Shown: piece by piece, positions 18,885-29,562 of the stretch
Numbering within the stretch: the first letter of the stretch is position 1
Layout: the number at the start of each line of letters is the position of its first letter
NCBI GenBank assembly: GCA_905612515.1
Contig: CAJQSI010000059.1
Coordinates: forward strand, 1 to 39,124
Direction of reading: 5' to 3'
Length of the DNA stretch: 39,124 nt
Origin: an uncultured Opitutales bacterium
GTDB lineage: Bacteria > Verrucomicrobiota > Verrucomicrobiia > Opitutales > Seribacteraceae
Position numbers and translations under genes: made by a program
The notes under the pieces: generated by a model
Databases searched by the model: none
What the model saw: the letters and a program-made list of their open reading frames with translations, nothing else
What the model was told of the DNA's origin: nothing

Positions 18885-20664
<1,780 letters not shown>

Positions 20665-20681
20665 GCGGAATGTTATTCTTT

Positions 20682-20700
20682 GACCGCACCTAATGCGGTC
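20682..20700 (+). terminator. Small hairpin preceding the main glnK1 terminator
   Basis: GACCGCA and TGCGGTC form a perfect 7-bp stem around a 5-base loop, 17 bp after the glnK stop. There is no T-run, so it is probably an accessory 3'-end structure. Confidence 0.4.
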
Positions 20701-20707
20701 GATTGTC

Positions 20708-20739
20708 AAGGGCCGATCCTTTCGAGGGTCGGCCCTTTT
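20708..20739 (+). terminator. Strong intrinsic terminator of amtB-glnK copy 1
   Basis: A 13-bp stem (20708-20720 with 20725-20737, one G-T wobble) is closed by a TTCG tetraloop and runs into TTTT. It separates the two tandem amtB-glnK units, so copy 2 needs its own promoter. Confidence 0.88.
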
Positions 20740-20781
20740 CCATTAAGCAAAAGGGACTCTAAGAAGTCTCGGGATGGAGGG

Positions 20782-20803
20782 AATTCATCACAAATCATGA
20801 ATT
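20782..20803. promoter_or_regulatory. Inverted repeat upstream of amtB copy 2
   Basis: AATTCAT-N8-ATGAATT, with a related AATTCCATTCAT further on (20822-20833), lies about 110-130 bp before the second amtB. It is a possible operator. No sigma-54 site as good as that of copy 1 is seen; a TTGGCTG near 20850 lacks a TTGCA partner. Confidence 0.3.
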
Positions 20804-20913
20804 ATTTTATGTTTTGTCTTGAATTCCATTCATAGACTAATACGAGGTTGGCTGTGATATTATGATTAGAAGCTAAAATACACGAAGAAAGAAAACCCAA
20901 AGGAGCAAAAGAC

Positions 20914-22320
20914 ATGAAGGTATTCAAACATCTGACACTATTTAGCGTATGGCTACGAACGATAACCTTACTCCCATGCATCATACTTCTGACTTTGCCG
21001 ATTGCCGCCCAAGAAGAAAATGCAACGGATGTGAATGCAGTTACGATTGAATCTGTTGCAAGCGACGAACTACAATCAAACAGTGCTCCCACCGCTTCAA
21101 AGAGTCCTGATAGCGGAAACACTGCTTGGATGCTAACTGCGACTGCCCTTGTGCTTTTTATGACTCTTCCCGGCCTCGCATTATTTTACGGTGGTCTCGT
21201 CCAATCTAAAAACGTGCTCTCCGTGCTCATGCACTGTTTCACCATTGCCTGTCTAGCCTCGATAATATGGGTAGCTTGCGGATACAGCTTGGCTCTGACT
21301 GAAGGAAGTGAGTGGATAGGAGGTACGGAAAGGGTTTTTCTAAATGGTCTTACTGCGGAATCTCTGAACAGTGACTTCCCCGAATCAGTTTGGGTCATTT
21401 TCCAAATGACCTTCGCAATCATTACTCCGAGTCTAATCGTAGGAGCCTTTGTCGAAAGAATCAAATTCTCCGCCATGATGATTTTCAGCGGGCTTTGGCT
21501 TTTAGCTGTGTACGTACCCACCTGTTATTGGGTATGGGGAGGCGGATGGCTAGCCGAAGCAGGTGTCATCGATTTTGCTGGGGGCATCGTAGTGCATGCC
21601 ACCGCAGGGGCTTCCGCACTTACAATCGCCGCAATGCTTGGTAGACGACAAGGTTTTCCAAAGAACCTTCGACCTCCACATAGCCCGGGGCTAGTGATGA
21701 TAGGTGCGGCGATGCTTTGGGTGGGATGGTTTGGATTTAATGCAGGTAGTGCCGCAGCTGCCGACGGTAGCGCGGGGATGGCTATGCTCGTAACTCACAT
21801 TTCAGCTGCGACAGCGAGCCTTGTGTGGATGTTCGTCGAGTGGAAGCAAACAGGTAAACCGGGTCTTGTCGGCATAGTCACCGGCATGGTGGCCGGCTTG
21901 GCAACGATAACCCCGGCGTCAGGAAACGTCGGTCCCATGGGTGCTGTAATCATTGGAGCGACTGCAGGAATCGTATGCTACTTCGCGTGTGGAATCGTTA
22001 AAGAGAAGCTGAATATTGATGATTCTCTAGACGTCGCTGCCGTTCATGGCATTGGAGGTGTCTTGGGCACTCTAATGGTAGCTTTTTTGGGTGTTGAGGG
22101 GACGCTTGGAGGTCGAGGGATCAATCTGGATAGCGCTGGAGATCAATTCCTCGTTCAAGCTAAAGGCTGTCTTGCAGCAGTCGCGCTATCGGTAGTCGCC
22201 ACCTATATTATCGTAAAAATCACTTCGGCTCTAACCGGAGGTATTCGAGTATCCCAAGATGAAGAAACGAAGGGGCTTGACCAAGCATCACATGGGGAGA
22301 ATGGTTATAGTATTCAATAA
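20914..22320 (+). CDS. amtB: Ammonium transporter AmtB, copy 2
   Basis: Second Amt channel, clearly related to copy 1 but diverged. It begins with its own signal peptide (core LLPCIILLTLPIAAQ) and an acidic/serine linker to about residue 68. The pore residues are kept: FQMTFAIITPSLIVGAFVER, GGIVVHATAGASAL (first His), WFGFNAGSAAAADGSAG and DVAAVHGIGGVLG (second His). The loop equivalent to the HMxW motif reads YVPTCYWVWGGG, so the periplasmic vestibule differs from copy 1. It precedes glnK copy 2 by 30 bp. An AAAGGAG ribosome site lies before its ATG. Different vestibule residues and a different upstream region suggest a separate expression range or a sensory role. Confidence 0.94.
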   Translation: MKVFKHLTLFSVWLRTITLLPCIILLTLPIAAQEENATDVNAVTIESVASDELQSNSAPTASKSPDSGNTAWMLTATALVLFMTLPGLALFYGGLVQSKNVLSVLMHCFTIACLASIIWVACGYSLALTEGSEWIGGTERVFLNGLTAESLNSDFPESVWVIFQMTFAIITPSLIVGAFVERIKFSAMMIFSGLWLLAVYVPTCYWVWGGGWLAEAGVIDFAGGIVVHATAGASALTIAAMLGRRQGFPKNLRPPHSPGLVMIGAAMLWVGWFGFNAGSAAAADGSAGMAMLVTHISAATASLVWMFVEWKQTGKPGLVGIVTGMVAGLATITPASGNVGPMGAVIIGATAGIVCYFACGIVKEKLNIDDSLDVAAVHGIGGVLGTLMVAFLGVEGTLGGRGINLDSAGDQFLVQAKGCLAAVALSVVATYIIVKITSALTGGIRVSQDEETKGLDQASHGENGYSIQ

Positions 22321-22326
22321 TTTTAA

Positions 22327-22689
<363 letters not shown>

Positions 22690-22700
22690 TTCTTTGTTAC

Positions 22701-24077
22701 CTAGCCTAGCTGAGCAGACAAGTTCCAGACGAGCCAGACGACCGTGGCGTAAATAGGAAAGGCCATCCCCTGCTTAAAGGATTCCATCCAAGCTCCCGGC
22801 TTGGGTAAACGACTTATCCAGTTCGGCATCAAGGATAAGAGCAGATAGGGAAAGGCCAATCCCAATCCGACACAGGTAAAAACGGCAATGGCAGGCAACC
22901 ACGCCATCGCCAAGGCCGCTCCCACGGCGACACCAAGAAAAGGCGCCATACAGGGCGTGGCAACCACCACCGCAAGTACGCCCGAAAAGAAGGAACCCGC
23001 ATAACCCGATTGCCCAGCAAGCTTGGATCCTGTCCCAGTAAGAGATAGCCCTATCTCGAAAACACCGCTCAGACTCAAGGCAAAGATCAAGAGCACAAGC
23101 GCCAACACAAAGACGAAACCTGGTTCCTGCAATTGAAAGCCCCAACCCAATTCCTGCTTCATCGTATTACGCAACCACAGAAGAACACCTACTAAAAGCC
23201 AAAAGGAAATCAATACACCTGCCGTAAAGATGAAACCGTGACGAGCAATCTTCTTCCTATCTTCTCCCGCCTGTTTGACAAACCCCATGATTTTCAGTCC
23301 AAGCACGGGAAATACGCACGGCATCAAATTTAGGATTAGACCTCCGAGAAAGGCAAATCCAAGTATAGCGACAAACCCTTGCTCACCCGGTTCCAAGTAA
23401 GGTTTACCCGTCTCAAGAACATCCAACACCATGGCCTCCGTCAAGGCTTCCGGCATCAGAATGGGCGGGGAAGGCAATGTGTCTGGGTCGTGAGCCTTGT
23501 GATAGATATTTAGAGGAACGCCCCCGCGCTCATAGCTTTGCAATGCATTAAGAATGACAGCATTTTTATCCGTCCAATCCGCCTTGAGTAGCACAATATC
23601 CAATTCCCGTATTTTACGGATTACGTCTTCGTAATAAAAAACGCGCTTGTTAACTTGACAGCTCCAACACCACTTAGCCGTATAATCAACGTAAACAGCC
23701 TTTCCTGCTTCCAACAGTTCACGCTCGCGGGCAGGAGTCCATTTCTCCCATTGAAGTGTGTTCAGATCCTCCTCGTCCGTAGGATAACCAAGCCAAACGC
23801 CGCTAGCCAACAAAGAGAAGGACACGAACCAAGCCTTCCGACGAGTTGGAGAGGACATCCCAAGACCTCCCCAACGGCCATACACCCAGGTTGCCATAGA
23901 TGCCAAAACCAAACCTAGAAGTACCCATAACGTCGAATAGTCGTCTGTGATTACTTCGGGAGTGGTAGAAACTTTGCTATCGGTATCTGAAAAAGCAATC
24001 GCTGCCATTCCACACAACAGGCTTCCGAGAAAAAGAAGTCTACGGGAGACCCGTATCGGCACGGAAAGCATCCTCAT
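22701..24077 (-). CDS. DsbD-like thiol:disulfide interchange protein with circularly permuted domain order
   Basis: Predicted inner-membrane electron carrier moving reducing power from cytoplasmic thioredoxin to the periplasm. From the N-terminus: a signal-like segment (about 1-30), two membrane segments (about 48-69, ending ATWVYGR, and 81-99), and a periplasmic thioredoxin domain with CWSC (137-140) and LLKADWTDKN. Six membrane segments follow, carrying NLMPCVFPVLG (Cys254) and VATPCMAPFLG (Cys376). In canonical DsbD the segment ending AFPIYATVVWLVW continues into the two helices and thioredoxin domain that here come first. All redox cysteines are present, so it is probably functional. ATG 24077 was chosen; a GTG at 24083 is also in frame. 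Confidence 0.82.
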   Translation of the reverse strand: MRMLSVPIRVSRRLLFLGSLLCGMAAIAFSDTDSKVSTTPEVITDDYSTLWVLLGLVLASMATWVYGRWGGLGMSSPTRRKAWFVSFSLLASGVWLGYPTDEEDLNTLQWEKWTPARERELLEAGKAVYVDYTAKWCWSCQVNKRVFYYEDVIRKIRELDIVLLKADWTDKNAVILNALQSYERGGVPLNIYHKAHDPDTLPSPPILMPEALTEAMVLDVLETGKPYLEPGEQGFVAILGFAFLGGLILNLMPCVFPVLGLKIMGFVKQAGEDRKKIARHGFIFTAGVLISFWLLVGVLLWLRNTMKQELGWGFQLQEPGFVFVLALVLLIFALSLSGVFEIGLSLTGTGSKLAGQSGYAGSFFSGVLAVVVATPCMAPFLGVAVGAALAMAWLPAIAVFTCVGLGLAFPYLLLSLMPNWISRLPKPGAWMESFKQGMAFPIYATVVWLVWNLSAQLG

Positions 24078-24092
24078 CAACACGAAACCGAA

Positions 24093-25565
24093 TCAGGGCG
24101 TGGTCGCGTTGATGAACATTAGCTGCCCTTTGGCCATACGTGCAAACTCGCCCGTAGTCTCCGTTAAATCAGCAGGCCAAGTCACGCCCTCGGGTAAAGC
24201 CACAACGAAATGAACGATCGGCAGGTGGGTTTCTTCCTCGTTCAAGGCGACACGAAACTTCTCATAAACATCGCGCCAAGGCCATGAACCACCGGATGAC
24301 ACCCTAGGTTTGGGCGGCAAGGTCATTTGAAGACGGGCCAAAGCAAGAAGTTCCAATTCGTCTTGAGTTGCGGGGGTCACCTCAGCATCCTTCATGGAAG
24401 CTAGCAACCATTTGACGGCAGTGAGACGAAGAGTCTTTGTCTGTTGCTCCCATTTCTTTAAATCTCCGGGATCGTTTGCTTCCTTCAAACCAGATTGATC
24501 GGACTCAACGACCGAAAAATCCTGAGGACGCATCGAAGAGCATTCTCCTGTCAAAACAAAGACTGCATCAGGCTCATAGTTTTTTATCGCACAGTAAAGA
24601 GCATACCAGGGACCTACGGTGCCTGGAGGTGGTTTTTCCACGATGTCACTATCATTGGGCCGCCGAATTGAAGCTGCTTGCTTATTCTCGTAAGGTTCTC
24701 CAATTTCCTTAATCCACTTTATGGCCATACTCTTGTTGGTGAAATCGGCCGGAAGAATGGTTTTTCCGAACATTTCAACTTCCCGCAAGTTACGAAAGAT
24801 CAAGAGGTTAAAGTAAGACTTTGCAGAAAGTCCGGAGATTGCCAATTGCAACTTATTTTTCAATTCGCGAAACCGTCCGACTCGATTACCTCGGGTCATG
24901 TAGTCGCTTGCGTCCAAGGCAAAAACGACTTGGCGGCCGGGGGTGCGGACTCCGAAAGCATCGATCTCGTAGGTTGGTCGAGCTCTTCCGGGCAATCCGG
25001 AAAACAACGGCGCTTTCGTAGACGAGGGGACTGAGACCGTACCAACCGGCATCGCGGAAGAATCTATCCGCGTGCTCGAACCAGAAGAAGTTAAAGCATC
25101 CTGTTTAGCAGTAGAAGATTTTGCCGGAAGCAACAGTGACTCCAATGTTTCGCCTCCCTTCCGGTCGGTCCCGGGCATGGTAGCAGATGGATGCCGCGAA
25201 ACGGGAGGAGATGATGGTTCGGCTGTAGATGCCACCCCATGTGCCGGCAAATAGCTTCCAAAATCGATCCATTTCATTTGCCATGCAAGTGCAGCGCTCG
25301 CGACCGCAAGATTCGCCAAGATGCTGAGAGTAAGGACGAGCTTCGAAAACCATCCACCGCCTGAAGATTTGTTCGATTTCGTAGCGACAACACCGTACCC
25401 AGGCTCGAAAACTTTCCCGCCATTTGTAACAAGATGTTCTCGCCATTCATCGAAATCCGTTTCCGAGCACTCGTATTTCTTGCATTGCTCGTCCTTGGAT
25501 ATGCTGCGGATAATCGATTCCAGTACGATCCGCAGTTTTTCTTCTCCACTAAAATGCTTTGCCAT
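24093..25565 (-). CDS. Membrane protein joining a transposase-type HTH to a degenerate VWA-like domain
   Basis: I do not know a named family for the whole protein. Residues 1-48 (FSGEEKLRIVLESI, then CKKYECSETDFDEWREHL) resemble the helix-turn-helix of IS3/IS911 OrfA-type transposases. A single hydrophobic segment (about 73-97) follows, then a Ser/Pro-rich linker (about 105-195). From 210 the pattern is VWA-like: RQVVFALDASDYM, an amphipathic helix, YFNLLIFRN and DAVFVLTGECSS. The metal site is altered: the third position of DxSxS is Tyr222, and the usual TDG-type Asp is absent (TGE). Topology would put the HTH in the cytoplasm and the VWA region outside. It lies 15 bp upstream of the DsbD-like gene on the same strand, probably cotranscribed. 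Confidence 0.72.
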   Translation of the reverse strand: MAKHFSGEEKLRIVLESIIRSISKDEQCKKYECSETDFDEWREHLVTNGGKVFEPGYGVVATKSNKSSGGGWFSKLVLTLSILANLAVASAALAWQMKWIDFGSYLPAHGVASTAEPSSPPVSRHPSATMPGTDRKGGETLESLLLPAKSSTAKQDALTSSGSSTRIDSSAMPVGTVSVPSSTKAPLFSGLPGRARPTYEIDAFGVRTPGRQVVFALDASDYMTRGNRVGRFRELKNKLQLAISGLSAKSYFNLLIFRNLREVEMFGKTILPADFTNKSMAIKWIKEIGEPYENKQAASIRRPNDSDIVEKPPPGTVGPWYALYCAIKNYEPDAVFVLTGECSSMRPQDFSVVESDQSGLKEANDPGDLKKWEQQTKTLRLTAVKWLLASMKDAEVTPATQDELELLALARLQMTLPPKPRVSSGGSWPWRDVYEKFRVALNEEETHLPIVHFVVALPEGVTWPADLTETTGEFARMAKGQLMFINATTP

Positions 25566-25591
25566 TAGAAATCAGTTTACAACAAATATAC

Positions 25592-26329
25592 TTAAACGCC
25601 AAATTTTTCGCATGCAACTGCCAATGCGCAAATAGCCGCCGTCTCTACTTTCATTGTATAAGGGCCCAAGCGGACGGGAACAAACCCTGCATCCTCCGCA
25701 AGTTTTTGCTCCGCTTCGGAAAATCCCCCTTCCGGTCCGATCGCAAAAGCAATGTCCGTTTCGGAACTCTTGGGCAGCGAAGAAACGGAAACTGCATTAA
25801 CTCCAAGACAACCAATCAATCGAACACCACCGTCTGGTAATTCTTGCAACCACTGATCGAAAGAGCGAGGTTTTCGGATCACGGGCAGCCATGGATTCCC
25901 CGACTGCTTGCAAGCCTCTGTCGCAATTCGCGACCACTTCCCCATCTTTGCATCTACCCTATGCTCCACATTCGCAACCTCGCCATGTTCCGAAAATAGC
26001 GGACTAATAAACGAAACTCCAAGTTCAGTGAGTTGGCGAACTATATCATCCATTCTTCCACCCTTTGGTAGAGAGACCCCGAGATCGAAAGCCGCTTGAG
26101 GTTTCTCGACCTGAACGGATTCAAGATTTTTCAGGACAACAACCCTTCCGTCCACGTCAACGACCTCAGTCCGAAAAATTGACCCGCGACCGTCCAACAC
26201 CTCGACCGCATGTCCCACTCCAACCCGTAAAACCCTGGAAAGATGACGACTTTCCTCTCCATGCAGGTGAAACATGCCTTCCTCCGATGGAAGGTCATCC
26301 GGTGCAAAGACTCGGTAGGTCCGGCTCAT
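25592..26329 (-). CDS. rsmE: 16S rRNA m3U1498 methyltransferase RsmE, paralog 1
   Basis: SPOUT-fold methyltransferase expected to methylate U1498 of 16S rRNA. It has the N-terminal PUA-like part (RTYRVFAPDDL...HLSRVLRVGVGHAVEVLDG), then LGVSLPKGGRMDDIVRQLTELG and the knotted SAM site IGPEGGFSEAEQKL with VRLGPYTMKVETA. ATG 26329 (MSRTYRVF) gives 245 residues, the normal length; the frame is open to 26437, but the extra sequence spans a terminator-like hairpin and is unlike the family. It lies 26 bp before the HTH-VWA gene on the same strand and is divergent from rsmD. Confidence 0.92.
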   Translation of the reverse strand: MSRTYRVFAPDDLPSEEGMFHLHGEESRHLSRVLRVGVGHAVEVLDGRGSIFRTEVVDVDGRVVVLKNLESVQVEKPQAAFDLGVSLPKGGRMDDIVRQLTELGVSFISPLFSEHGEVANVEHRVDAKMGKWSRIATEACKQSGNPWLPVIRKPRSFDQWLQELPDGGVRLIGCLGVNAVSVSSLPKSSETDIAFAIGPEGGFSEAEQKLAEDAGFVPVRLGPYTMKVETAAICALAVACEKFGV

Positions 26330-26381
26330 TTTTTGTCGAATGCGATTGACCATTCCTGTAGGAATCTGACAACGAGTACAA

Positions 26382-26408
26382 CAAAAAGCACCGTCCAAAG
26401 ACGGTGCT
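26382..26408 (-). terminator. Terminator-like hairpin in the rsmE leader
   Basis: On the minus strand a perfect 9-bp stem (AGCACCGTC / GACGGTGCT) with a 4-base loop is followed by TTTTTGT. It lies about 58 nt upstream of the rsmE ATG with no complete minus-strand gene before it, so it could be an attenuator or the end of a short RNA. Confidence 0.6.
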
Positions 26409-26514
26409 CTTGTAACCAAACAATGATATGAAGTCATTCAGTACTTCAGTACCATGAAAACGCAATTAATAAGACCGGCAGTTCACTTCGGCGTTCAATA
26501 AAGCTTCTAATCAG

Positions 26515-27087
26515 ATGAGAATTTCAGGAGGGAAAGCTAAAGGCATAAAACTGAGGATACCAAAAGGCAGTCCCTTGCGACCTGCTGCAGAACCAGTTCG
26601 CGAACGTTTATTTTCCTCATTGGGAGATCTCGTGTCAGGTGCGAAATTCCTCGATCTCTTTGCAGGGACAGGTTCCTATGGATTGGAAGCACTCAGTCGT
26701 GGAGCCGAAAGCGGGGCCTTCATCGAGCAAGACGTCAACACGGTATCATGCCTTCGAAACAATCTGACCGCCGTATGTAAAAGCGCCAATGTTTCTTCGG
26801 AAAGTTTTGAAGTCATAAGTGGCGATGCCCTCCGAACCACACCTCGGCAATCAGGATCTTTCGACCTAATATTCGCCGACCCCCCCTACGCCATTCTCAT
26901 GAAAATTGCTCCAAAGCTCTTTGCTCGGATACTTGGAGACGGTCTGGCAAACAAAAGTTCCCTGCTCATTTTAGAATTACCCGGTGAGGTGGAGCTAGAT
27001 GCGGAAGGCTGGCAATGCGAGCGCCGACTGGGAAAAGCACGCAAGGGAGCACCAATCCTAGCTCTTTTTCGCCCGACTTCCGCCTAA
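26515..27087 (+). CDS. rsmD: 16S rRNA (guanine966-N2)-methyltransferase
   Basis: Methylates G966 of 16S rRNA using SAM. It starts MRISGGKAKGIKL, the usual RsmD N-terminus, followed by RPAAEPVRERLFSSLGDLV and SAM motif I FLDLFAGTGSYGLEALSRGA. The catalytic N-methyltransferase motif is FADPPYAI. Its 190 residues are normal. It is transcribed alone, convergent with RsmE paralog 2 with only 4 bp between stops, and divergent from RsmE paralog 1. Three small-subunit rRNA methyltransferase-type genes therefore sit side by side. Confidence 0.92.
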   Translation: MRISGGKAKGIKLRIPKGSPLRPAAEPVRERLFSSLGDLVSGAKFLDLFAGTGSYGLEALSRGAESGAFIEQDVNTVSCLRNNLTAVCKSANVSSESFEVISGDALRTTPRQSGSFDLIFADPPYAILMKIAPKLFARILGDGLANKSSLLILELPGEVELDAEGWQCERRLGKARKGAPILALFRPTSA

Positions 27088-27091
27088 CCCT

Positions 27092-27811
27092 TCACCAGTA
27101 CCCGGACGAAAGTATTCCCAGAGCGACAACGCAGGCAGTTTCTTCCCGAAGTACACGGGGACCAAGGTGGCGAAATTCGAATTCCGATTCTCTCAGCAGG
27201 TCACGTTCTCGGGCGGACCAACCGCGTTCAGAGCCAACGGCGAGCTGGCACGGAGTCCGCGGAAGTGCCGAATCAGTAAAAGCCAGCGGTGAAGCGGCTT
27301 CGTATACGTCGAGGGCGAAACGGCTACCGGAACGAGGTAATTCGGCAAGAGCGGCTTCGATATTAGGATGACGATTCACGACGGGAAGAAAGGAAGAGAA
27401 AGCTTGTTCGACTCCACGAAGGAGATGGCGACGCCACTCGTCGGAACTCCACAGTTTGCTGTCGGCATAGGAAGGCTCGCCTTTGTCGGTTCCCAAAAAA
27501 TCCATTGCCTCGACGCCTAAACTGGCTGCCTGCCGAAGAATTTTCCGAGCAGTCTGTGGTCTGGGAAGACCGACGAGAAGACGAATGGGAATTCGATCGT
27601 CCTCAATGCTGTCTTGCCAAAGAAAGGAAAGGCGCAATCCGGCGGTACCGTCCTCCAAGATAGTCGCCTTACCCTTGGGACCATTTACGACGGCAACGTC
27701 GAAGTCGTCTCCAGGCAGACGCCTCAAGACATCTCTGACATGTGCGACCCGAGGATCTCCAATAGGCAAAAGAATCTCGTTTGCCTGATCTTCAAAGAGT
27801 AAAAGGTTCAA
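27092..27811 (-). CDS. RsmE-family rRNA methyltransferase, paralog 2
   Basis: Second SPOUT methyltransferase of the RsmE type, only distantly similar to the one 1 kb away. It has LLLFEDQANE at the N-terminus, HVRDVLRRLPGDDFDVAVVNG (PUA-like part), VGLPRPQTARKILRQAASLGV, and the SAM knot as LAVGSERGWSARERDLL with HLGPRVLREETACVVAL. The GSERGW form is a recognised variant of the GPEGGF loop. I chose TTG at 27811, which overlaps the upstream phosphorylase stop as TTGA and gives the family N-terminus; the longest frame starts at TTG 27826. Which paralog modifies U1498, and whether this one has another rRNA target, is open. Confidence 0.85.
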   Translation of the reverse strand: MNLLLFEDQANEILLPIGDPRVAHVRDVLRRLPGDDFDVAVVNGPKGKATILEDGTAGLRLSFLWQDSIEDDRIPIRLLVGLPRPQTARKILRQAASLGVEAMDFLGTDKGEPSYADSKLWSSDEWRRHLLRGVEQAFSSFLPVVNRHPNIEAALAELPRSGSRFALDVYEAASPLAFTDSALPRTPCQLAVGSERGWSARERDLLRESEFEFRHLGPRVLREETACVVALGILSSGYW

Positions 27812-29562
27812 AGCGGAGCAAGCCAAAGAGTCTGGTAAGGTCTCAGAACAACACCCTCCGGATCAATGGCGATATCGGAACCGCCTGCAAAATCACGAAA
27901 CTTTCCATCGGGAAAAAGTTCCTCGATGTGGATTGCTGCGGGAATAGGAACAGGAGCATTCGTGAAATTGAAGAGACAAATAACAGTTTGGGAACCATCG
28001 AGAGAAGTGCGCTCGACGGCAAACAAATCGGGACCGTATTCCTTAATGACCTGAGGGGCATCGGGATGAAAAGCAGGGCAGGATGCCCGACGACGCAGCA
28101 GACGCGCCAACCAGTCGAAAACCCGAGCACCCAGACATTCGGCATCATCGAGAACTTCCGTAAGTTCACCGTGCTCCCATTTTCGGCGGTTGATACTCCG
28201 GTTGTGGCCGGTTTCCTCAACCCCTTGAATATGGTTGGGTGTTGCGGTGAGAGAATGGAAATAAATAGCGGGAATCCCTTGCATGGCAAGAGCCACCGCT
28301 TGGGAACAAAGGAAACGAGCTTCTCCAACTGCATCGTCTTCCGGTTCGGCAAGGGCGCCGAAGTAGGTGGCGTTTAATTCGTAGGGAACCTCGGAACCGT
28401 CTTCAAGCGACCTCATGGAGACAAGCCCCCCACGCGCCTCGACCTTTTCGGCAAGCGCAAGGATTTCTTCCTGTGAAAGTATGCCTTCGAGAGGGCGAAC
28501 TCCGATTCCGTCGTGACTGGCGGTAAAGTTGAGGAAAGAGCAACCGCGGGGCGGAGGCGCCAAGTGGCTCGCCCATTCAGTGAGATGAGCGGCAGTGCCG
28601 TTGAGCAAACCGTGCAAGACAAGGGGAGGTAGAGCGAACTGATAAACCATGTGAGCCTCGTCACCTCGACCAAAATAACTTATGTTTTCATCATGAGGAA
28701 CATTGGTTTCCGTCAAGATAATGACGTCGGGGGCAATGACTTCCAGAAAGTTTCGCAAGAGCTTAACCACCTCGTGGGTCTTAGGCAGATGCAAGCAGTT
28801 CGTTCCGATTTCTTTCCAAAGAAAAGCCACCGCATCCAGTCGCAAAACCCGGCTACCTTCGGAAACGTATTTCATTATAATGTCAAGAAACTCGAAGAGC
28901 AGATCGGGAGAACGCCAGTCAAGGTCGACTTGATCGGAGCTGAAAGTGGTCCATACGTGGCGTTCACCATCGCGGGTGGAGGTGGGAGTCAGAAGAGGAG
29001 AAGAACGGGGTCTGACGACAGCCGTAAGATCGGCCTCCGGGTCTTCTTCTCGAATATAGTTGAGAGCAGGTTCAATTCCGGAGACATAATCGAGAAACCA
29101 GTCACTCCCTGCGGAACAGTGATTGAGCACGAGATCGAACATTAAATCGAACTCACCCGAAAAGCTCCGAACATGCTCCCAATCCCCGTAGCGCTCGTCC
29201 ACCTCACGATAATCGATGACGGAAAAACCATCGTCGGAAGACCAAGGGTAAAAAGGCAAAAGATGTACTATGGAAAAGACGCCTTTCAAACGCTCACTGC
29301 AAAAGTGGCGAAGAGTCTCAAGGGGAACCTCGCCTTTTTGGTAAACCATGTCGGCATAGGAAATAAGAACGGCGTCCTTCTCGCTCCAGAAACGCTCAGT
29401 CTGATGAGCATCGATTCCCACTCCATAGCGACCGAGAGTGTGATAAAAACGCTCAAGCAGTTGGTCCGCGACGGTAGCTCCGTATAGCTTTTGAAAGCGA
29501 CGGCGAATAGTCTTCAATTTAGAGTTGGAGACATGCTTCACGATGGAAGATATGCTGTTCAT
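27808..29562 (-). CDS. GH13_18 sugar phosphorylase, probable glucosylglycerate phosphorylase
   Basis: Retaining alpha-glucoside phosphorylase of the sucrose-phosphorylase subfamily. It shows LLPFYPWSSDDGFSVIDYR, LMFDLVLNHCSAGSDWF, the nucleophile motif RVLRLDAVAFLWKEIGT, the acid/base motif ILTETNVPHDENISYFG and the third acid in TASHDGIGVRPLEG. A late HNRSINRRKW also fits. At 584 residues it is longer than classical sucrose phosphorylase (about 490-505) and fits the glucosylglycerate or sucrose-6-phosphate phosphorylase types. Adjacency to gpgS and an MggS-like gene favours glucosylglycerate; that assignment is inference. It lies 9 bp after the GT4 gene and overlaps RsmE paralog 2 by 4 bp. 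Confidence 0.85.
   Translation of the reverse strand: MNSISSIVKHVSNSKLKTIRRRFQKLYGATVADQLLERFYHTLGRYGVGIDAHQTERFWSEKDAVLISYADMVYQKGEVPLETLRHFCSERLKGVFSIVHLLPFYPWSSDDGFSVIDYREVDERYGDWEHVRSFSGEFDLMFDLVLNHCSAGSDWFLDYVSGIEPALNYIREEDPEADLTAVVRPRSSPLLTPTSTRDGERHVWTTFSSDQVDLDWRSPDLLFEFLDIIMKYVSEGSRVLRLDAVAFLWKEIGTNCLHLPKTHEVVKLLRNFLEVIAPDVIILTETNVPHDENISYFGRGDEAHMVYQFALPPLVLHGLLNGTAAHLTEWASHLAPPPRGCSFLNFTASHDGIGVRPLEGILSQEEILALAEKVEARGGLVSMRSLEDGSEVPYELNATYFGALAEPEDDAVGEARFLCSQAVALAMQGIPAIYFHSLTATPNHIQGVEETGHNRSINRRKWEHGELTEVLDDAECLGARVFDWLARLLRRRASCPAFHPDAPQVIKEYGPDLFAVERTSLDGSQTVICLFNFTNAPVPIPAAIHIEELFPDGKFRDFAGGSDIAIDPEGVVLRPYQTLWLAPL

Follow-up and report, generated by a model that had tools for sequence, protein, structure and literature searches.

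In the window (the whole stretch of 39,124 nucleotides analysed here), the minus-strand ORF 24093-25565 is a real gene encoding a protein of 490 amino acids. It has an ATG start, and the frame upstream of this ATG is closed after two codons, making an earlier start impossible. The protein is composed of a helix-turn-helix (HTH) head, a transmembrane (TM) helix, a linker, and a vWA-like domain. An RsmE-type 16S rRNA methyltransferase gene (25592-26437, minus strand) ends 26 bp upstream of the ORF, and the gene of a DsbD homolog (22701-24083, minus strand), which has a thioredoxin-like domain N-terminal to DsbD_TM, starts 9 bp downstream. Since the three genes lie on one strand with such short gaps, they are probably co-transcribed.

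Is this gene order conserved? The order rsmE-[gene] was found in all ten neighbourhoods compared, and dsbD comes next in eight of them, the two exceptions being both loci of genus g3. Beyond rsmE, these loci contain rsmD, a second RsmE-like gene, an amylase-type gene, and a glycosyltransferase gene. No motor gene (tolQ/exbB or tolR/exbD) lies beside the gene in the compared neighbourhoods. A preliminary description of this DNA had pointed to a neighbouring periplasmic thiol exchanger. Among the ten loci compared, the adjacency is lost in genus g3 alone, but it does not establish a joint function of the two proteins. An ancestral version without the head was also sought at the rsmE-dsbD site of sister families, and none was found beside dsbD in 26 loci.

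Some features of the neighbouring genes were observed separately. The DsbD homolog of the window is domain-permuted; in nearly all other members of the order that were checked, the TM part comes first, while the homolog at one locus (L191, family f19) has the same contiguous domain order as the window protein. In the genus of the window, the homolog is 460 residues long and lacks the N-terminal ~250 residues seen in the ~710-residue versions of sister genera. Two RsmE-type genes (27092-27826 and 25592-26437, both on the minus strand) have an rsmD-type gene of the other orientation between them, and this arrangement is kept across the family loci compared. At 18885-22689 on the plus strand, there are two ammonium-transporter genes in succession, each followed by a 112-residue GlnK/PII-like gene; these pairs are kept in most of the family loci compared.

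The N-terminal helix-turn-helix head

The head (residues 1-54; 25404-25565, minus strand) resembles HTH_Tnp_1 and is the most conserved segment of the protein. AlphaFold predicted helices at residues 7-19, 24-31, and 35-48, with pLDDT mostly 85-87, and the model has three helices only, without a wing. The full-length protein matches almost nothing in Pfam, with DUF1153 at 0.047; there is no match to Trans_reg_C. The top Pfam matches of the head alone are HTH_Tnp_1, DUF1153, and HTH_28. The 56-residue head of the window scores 14.6 bits against HTH_Tnp_1, under the cut-off of 24.1, while two ortholog heads pass it with 24.5 and 26.0 bits. The nearest matches outside the family are transposase-type ORFs. 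A family profile of the head matched these ORFs at E values of 2e-13 to 6e-11, within a small set of preselected loci, and a model of the whole protein matched one at 1.2e-10 (one genome). With the head alone, Foldseek gave nothing in the PDB with an E value below 0.001; its top match was 2jrt, a protein of R. sphaeroides (E 0.12, probability 0.99), and the top ten include 2rn7 (TnpE of Shigella flexneri). A profile search of PDB sequences returned 2jrt again, weakly (0.088). The head also weakly resembles SciP/DUF1153. It shares the trihelical structure and the KLRIVLE...W...G pattern with IS3-family OrfA/HTH_Tnp_1 (PF01527) and SciP/DUF1153, and Pfam cut-offs are passed by some orthologs. 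Unlike IS3 OrfA, the protein is a membrane-protein fusion with an acidic head, and there is no Pfam match to a transposase catalytic (DDE) domain or OrfB and no inverted repeat of at least 14 bases in 23900-26600. The proposal of a domesticated IS3 OrfA-type head, made from the sequence alone, is supported, although the window copy itself falls below the cut-off; the reported lack of a catalytic domain and of inverted repeats is likewise borne out.

I examined the distribution of the head. A first search found orthologs in nearly all genomes of the GTDB family of the window (f1). The head profile matched 33 of 42 genomes of this family, always as a single copy; paralogs with the same head, whose existence had been raised as a question, are absent from all 42. 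Among good-quality genomes (completeness of 90% or more, contamination of 5% or less), 13 of 14 have head-bearing orthologs, and the head is present in all four genera of the family. A scan of contigs gave matches in two congeners only. In a sample of 286 genomes of the class, the remaining head matches examined are transposase-type ORFs. Thus, the head-TM-linker-vWA architecture appears to be limited to this family among the sampled genomes. The head of genus g3 looks more transposase-like; the tree of the body places this genus with the rest of the family, while the head tree (62 columns) cannot decide the origin of the g3 head.

The head is part of the translated protein, and no other segment of it is under such strong purifying selection. 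All 27 near-complete orthologs keep its frame, length, and sequence, with no frameshifts. On average, the majority residue has a share of 0.77 at head positions, 0.69-0.74 within the vWA core, and 0.30 at linker positions. In three pairs within the genus, the dN/dS of residues 1-56 is 0.013-0.062; the one pair of these with equal length has values of 0.292 in the vWA part (residues 197-490) and 0.533 in the linker. A chance HMM match is ruled out by the family-wide conservation and the matches to transposase-type ORFs. A late start codon, such as the start after residue 60 that would leave the head untranslated, is ruled out by the kept frame and the dN/dS. A recent IS insertion was also rejected, as inverted repeats are lacking and all four genera share the head.

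The head is acidic, with a net charge of -2.2 on average in the family (range -6 to 0), while the mean of the closest transposase heads is on the basic side (+1.9). The recognition helix (helix 3) has a charge of -2.7 in the family versus +0.3 in the transposase heads. Therefore, DNA binding by the head is disfavoured, and protein docking or dimerisation is favoured, although this argument from acidity is indirect; an acidic overall charge occurs in some DNA-binding HTHs.

The membrane span, linker, and vWA-like domain

The juxtamembrane segment (residues 55-74; 25344-25403, minus strand) is generally basic in the family, in accordance with the positive-inside rule, and is followed by a single TM helix (residues about 75-95; 25281-25343, minus strand), modelled by AlphaFold as a helix at residues 72-98. 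Counted over 22 residues, the net charge is +4.8 on the N-terminal side of the span versus -2.2 on the C-terminal side. By these charges the span is N-in, which should place the head in the cytoplasm and the vWA domain in the periplasm. Thus, of the cytoplasmic DNA-binding-type head described earlier, the location agrees with the charges, but the DNA binding is disfavoured by the acidity of the head and its helix 3. The only invariant residues of the span are S81 and N85 (25311-25325, minus strand; 27 of 27 proteins). In headless relatives and in TonB/TolA, the aligned positions form the motor-binding motif Ser-x3-His, which is replaced by Ser-x3-Asn in the whole set of 27.

The linker (residues 96-196; 24978-25280, minus strand) is of low complexity and fast-evolving. 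In the AlphaFold model, residues 106-196 are disordered, and no strand is predicted in residues 99-199. No motor box is recognisable: a motor-box-like pattern was found in none of the 27 family proteins and in 26 of 48 headless relatives, with a rough, home-made pattern that was drawn up after viewing the headless sequences and misses nearly half of them.

The vWA-like periplasmic domain occupies residues 197-490 (24096-24977, minus strand), and its Rossmann fold begins at residue 200 in the AlphaFold model. The best Foldseek matches in the PDB are mostly vWA domains, including the inter-alpha-inhibitor heavy chain (7e-6) and BatB (9e-4). The MIDAS loop is degenerate, D218-A-S-D-Y222 (24900-24914, minus strand) in place of the canonical DxSxS, and D218 is the sole residue of this site that is invariant within the family. 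In most relatives the loop is DxGxY. TGE stands where TDG is usual, so the full set of DxSxS with the loop Thr and Asp is absent. The architecture proposed at the outset is supported: a three-helix head, one span, a low-complexity linker, and a VWA-like domain with an altered metal site.

Headless relatives in motor operons

Elsewhere in the phylum, the family HMM matched relatives only from about the span onward; their ORFs begin with the span and have no head. Among them are TM-linker-vWA proteins of motor operons, at E values of about 1e-5 to 1e-27. About half of the headless relatives adjoin exbB-exbD-exbD and carry the Ser-x3-His of TonB/TolA. Among the 47 headless relatives scored for the motif, an exbD gene lies at most 6.5 kb away on the strand of the vWA gene in 24, and each of these 24 has a His aligned with N85 (22 Ser-x3-His and 2 Ala-x3-His). 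The unlinked relatives have His at this position in 13 of 23 cases (Fisher p=2e-4 versus the linked ones, with phylogenetically non-independent rows). A tree of the post-span parts separated the 27 family proteins from ten headless ones with a support of 100/100, subject to a long-branch warning. Thus, vWA proteins of ExbBD/TolQR-type motor operons are the ancestors of the body of the protein, and the initial view of this body as an ordinary sensor or adhesin is not supported. The architecture, family-wide conservation, and ancestry of the protein are well supported.

Williams-Jones et al. 2025 proposed vWA force transducers for Verrucomicrobia and other phyla; they have an SHLS-type helix, a linker with a motor box, and a vWA end domain, their function is unknown, and their genes adjoin tolQ-like and paired tolR-like genes (PMC12204202). 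The headless relatives match these force transducers. The family protein shares with them the single N-terminal TM helix, the disordered linker of ~100 residues, and the vWA end domain, and its headless relatives show the exbB-exbD-exbD neighbourhood and Ser-x3-His. In contrast, it has an HTH head, Asn for His, and no detected motor box, and its gene lies beside rsmE/dsbD, away from motor genes. Since three features of the class (the His motif, the motor box, and the motor-gene neighbours) are lacking, the protein is regarded as related to the class and is not placed in it as a functional member. Headless vWA force transducers have already been described; the HTH-headed protein is the newly found variant.

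Two groups of relatives were observed apart from this. Seven headless relatives without exbBD nearby (L049, L050, L052, L053, L054, L151, and L170) have Gln at the His position, which suggests another decoupled subgroup. Relatives in family f76 (L147, L174, and the first protein of L149) are 764-796 residues long, and the L147 protein has two vWA-like segments in succession.

Possible roles of the headed protein

I tentatively prefer, at a little under an even chance, to read the protein as a descendant of the force transducers that would have been turned into a membrane-bound adaptor docking through its head; a sensor that binds DNA is less favoured. A protein of the vWA force-transducer lineage, with its TonB/TolA-like anchor, disordered linker, and vWA end domain, acquired an IS3 OrfA-type HTH at its N-terminus in the ancestor of one GTDB family, and the gene was relocated beside rsmE (mostly dsbD too) in the same ancestor. 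At present, it may act as a bitopic adaptor in the inner membrane, with reduced coupling to a motor. On the periplasmic side, it would contact an envelope partner through the vWA domain, with no metal in the MIDAS. The span would bind a further helix through its Ser/Asn face, the partner being an ExbB/TolQ-type subunit or another copy of the protein. The head would dock a cytoplasmic protein or dimerise, as the RodZ HTH does with MreB rather than DNA. Since Asn within a membrane helix can drive oligomerisation, S81 and N85 may hold a homodimer together rather than contact a motor. RodZ has the same layout of a cytoplasmic HTH head, a basic juxtamembrane region, one span, a linker, and a periplasmic domain. 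This is a likeness of layout, not homology: the RodZ head is XRE-type, XRE/HTH_25 is not among the best Pfam matches of the family head, and the RodZ periplasmic domain is not a vWA domain. The cytoplasmic HTH of RodZ binds MreB, not DNA (PMC6946637).

The several ExbD copies of the family genomes speak against the adaptor reading by making a motor partner available, and the protein could still be a vWA force transducer driven by the proton motive force (PMF). Its Ser-x3-Asn would then bind an ExbB/TolQ-type motor encoded elsewhere, the head would dock or localise the motor, and force would be transmitted to the periplasmic vWA domain. This is possible but rather unlikely. The ancestry within ExbBD operons is consistent with it, as is ExbD itself, which was found in every family genome searched, usually in several copies (up to 11 each). 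Like TonB/TolA, the protein has an N-in anchor, a conserved polar i,i+4 pair near the cytoplasmic side, and a disordered linker. Cryo-EM structures showed that Ser16/His20 of TonB and Ser18/His22 of TolA, with which the invariant S81 and N85 align, contact ExbB/TolQ (PMC12215075). The His has been lost, and a motor-box-like strand is missing in 27 of 27 proteins by the rough pattern; no motor gene adjoins the gene in the loci compared, and the end domain and HTH head also differ from TonB/TolA. Nevertheless, Asn can reportedly replace His20 of TonB fully, going by the title of a 2011 paper of Swayne and Postle that is cited in PMC8928145, so the change from His to Asn, with Ser/Asn kept, could preserve full motor coupling.

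A one-component regulator of the ToxR/CadC kind, in which the vWA domain would detect a ligand or protein in the periplasm while the HTH head binds DNA from the membrane, is unlikely. The HTH fold and HTH_Tnp_1 homology of the head, its extreme constraint, its weak likeness to SciP/DUF1153, a transcription-control protein, and the single N-in span are consistent with it, and ToxR/CadC also have a cytoplasmic HTH, one span, and a periplasmic domain. However, the head of ToxR/CadC is a winged HTH, while the family head is homeodomain-like, wingless, and acidic down to its recognition helix, and the lack of inverted repeats noted above leaves no obvious local operator. A PMF-powered envelope transducer whose domesticated transposase head still holds DNA, so that a periplasmic vWA partner, an ExbBD-type motor of the inner membrane, and the chromosome would be physically linked through one protein, is very unlikely. 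The head might even be a recent or neutral by-product of IS insertion without function, or untranslated, as its best outside homologs are transposase-type ORFs. This is hardly credible, since the head begins at an unambiguous ATG, is free of frameshifts, occurs in all four genera, and is the most constrained segment, with a dN/dS of 0.01-0.06 that contradicts such a by-product.

An HTH of the mobile-element type has been recruited onto the cytoplasmic face of an envelope force-transducer descendant, not into a soluble regulator, and has become the most constrained part of the protein. The vWA-transducer class thereby gains a natural variant in which motor features (the His, the motor box, and the operon) are lost or changed and a cytoplasmic module is gained. 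This variant makes the features needed for motor coupling testable.
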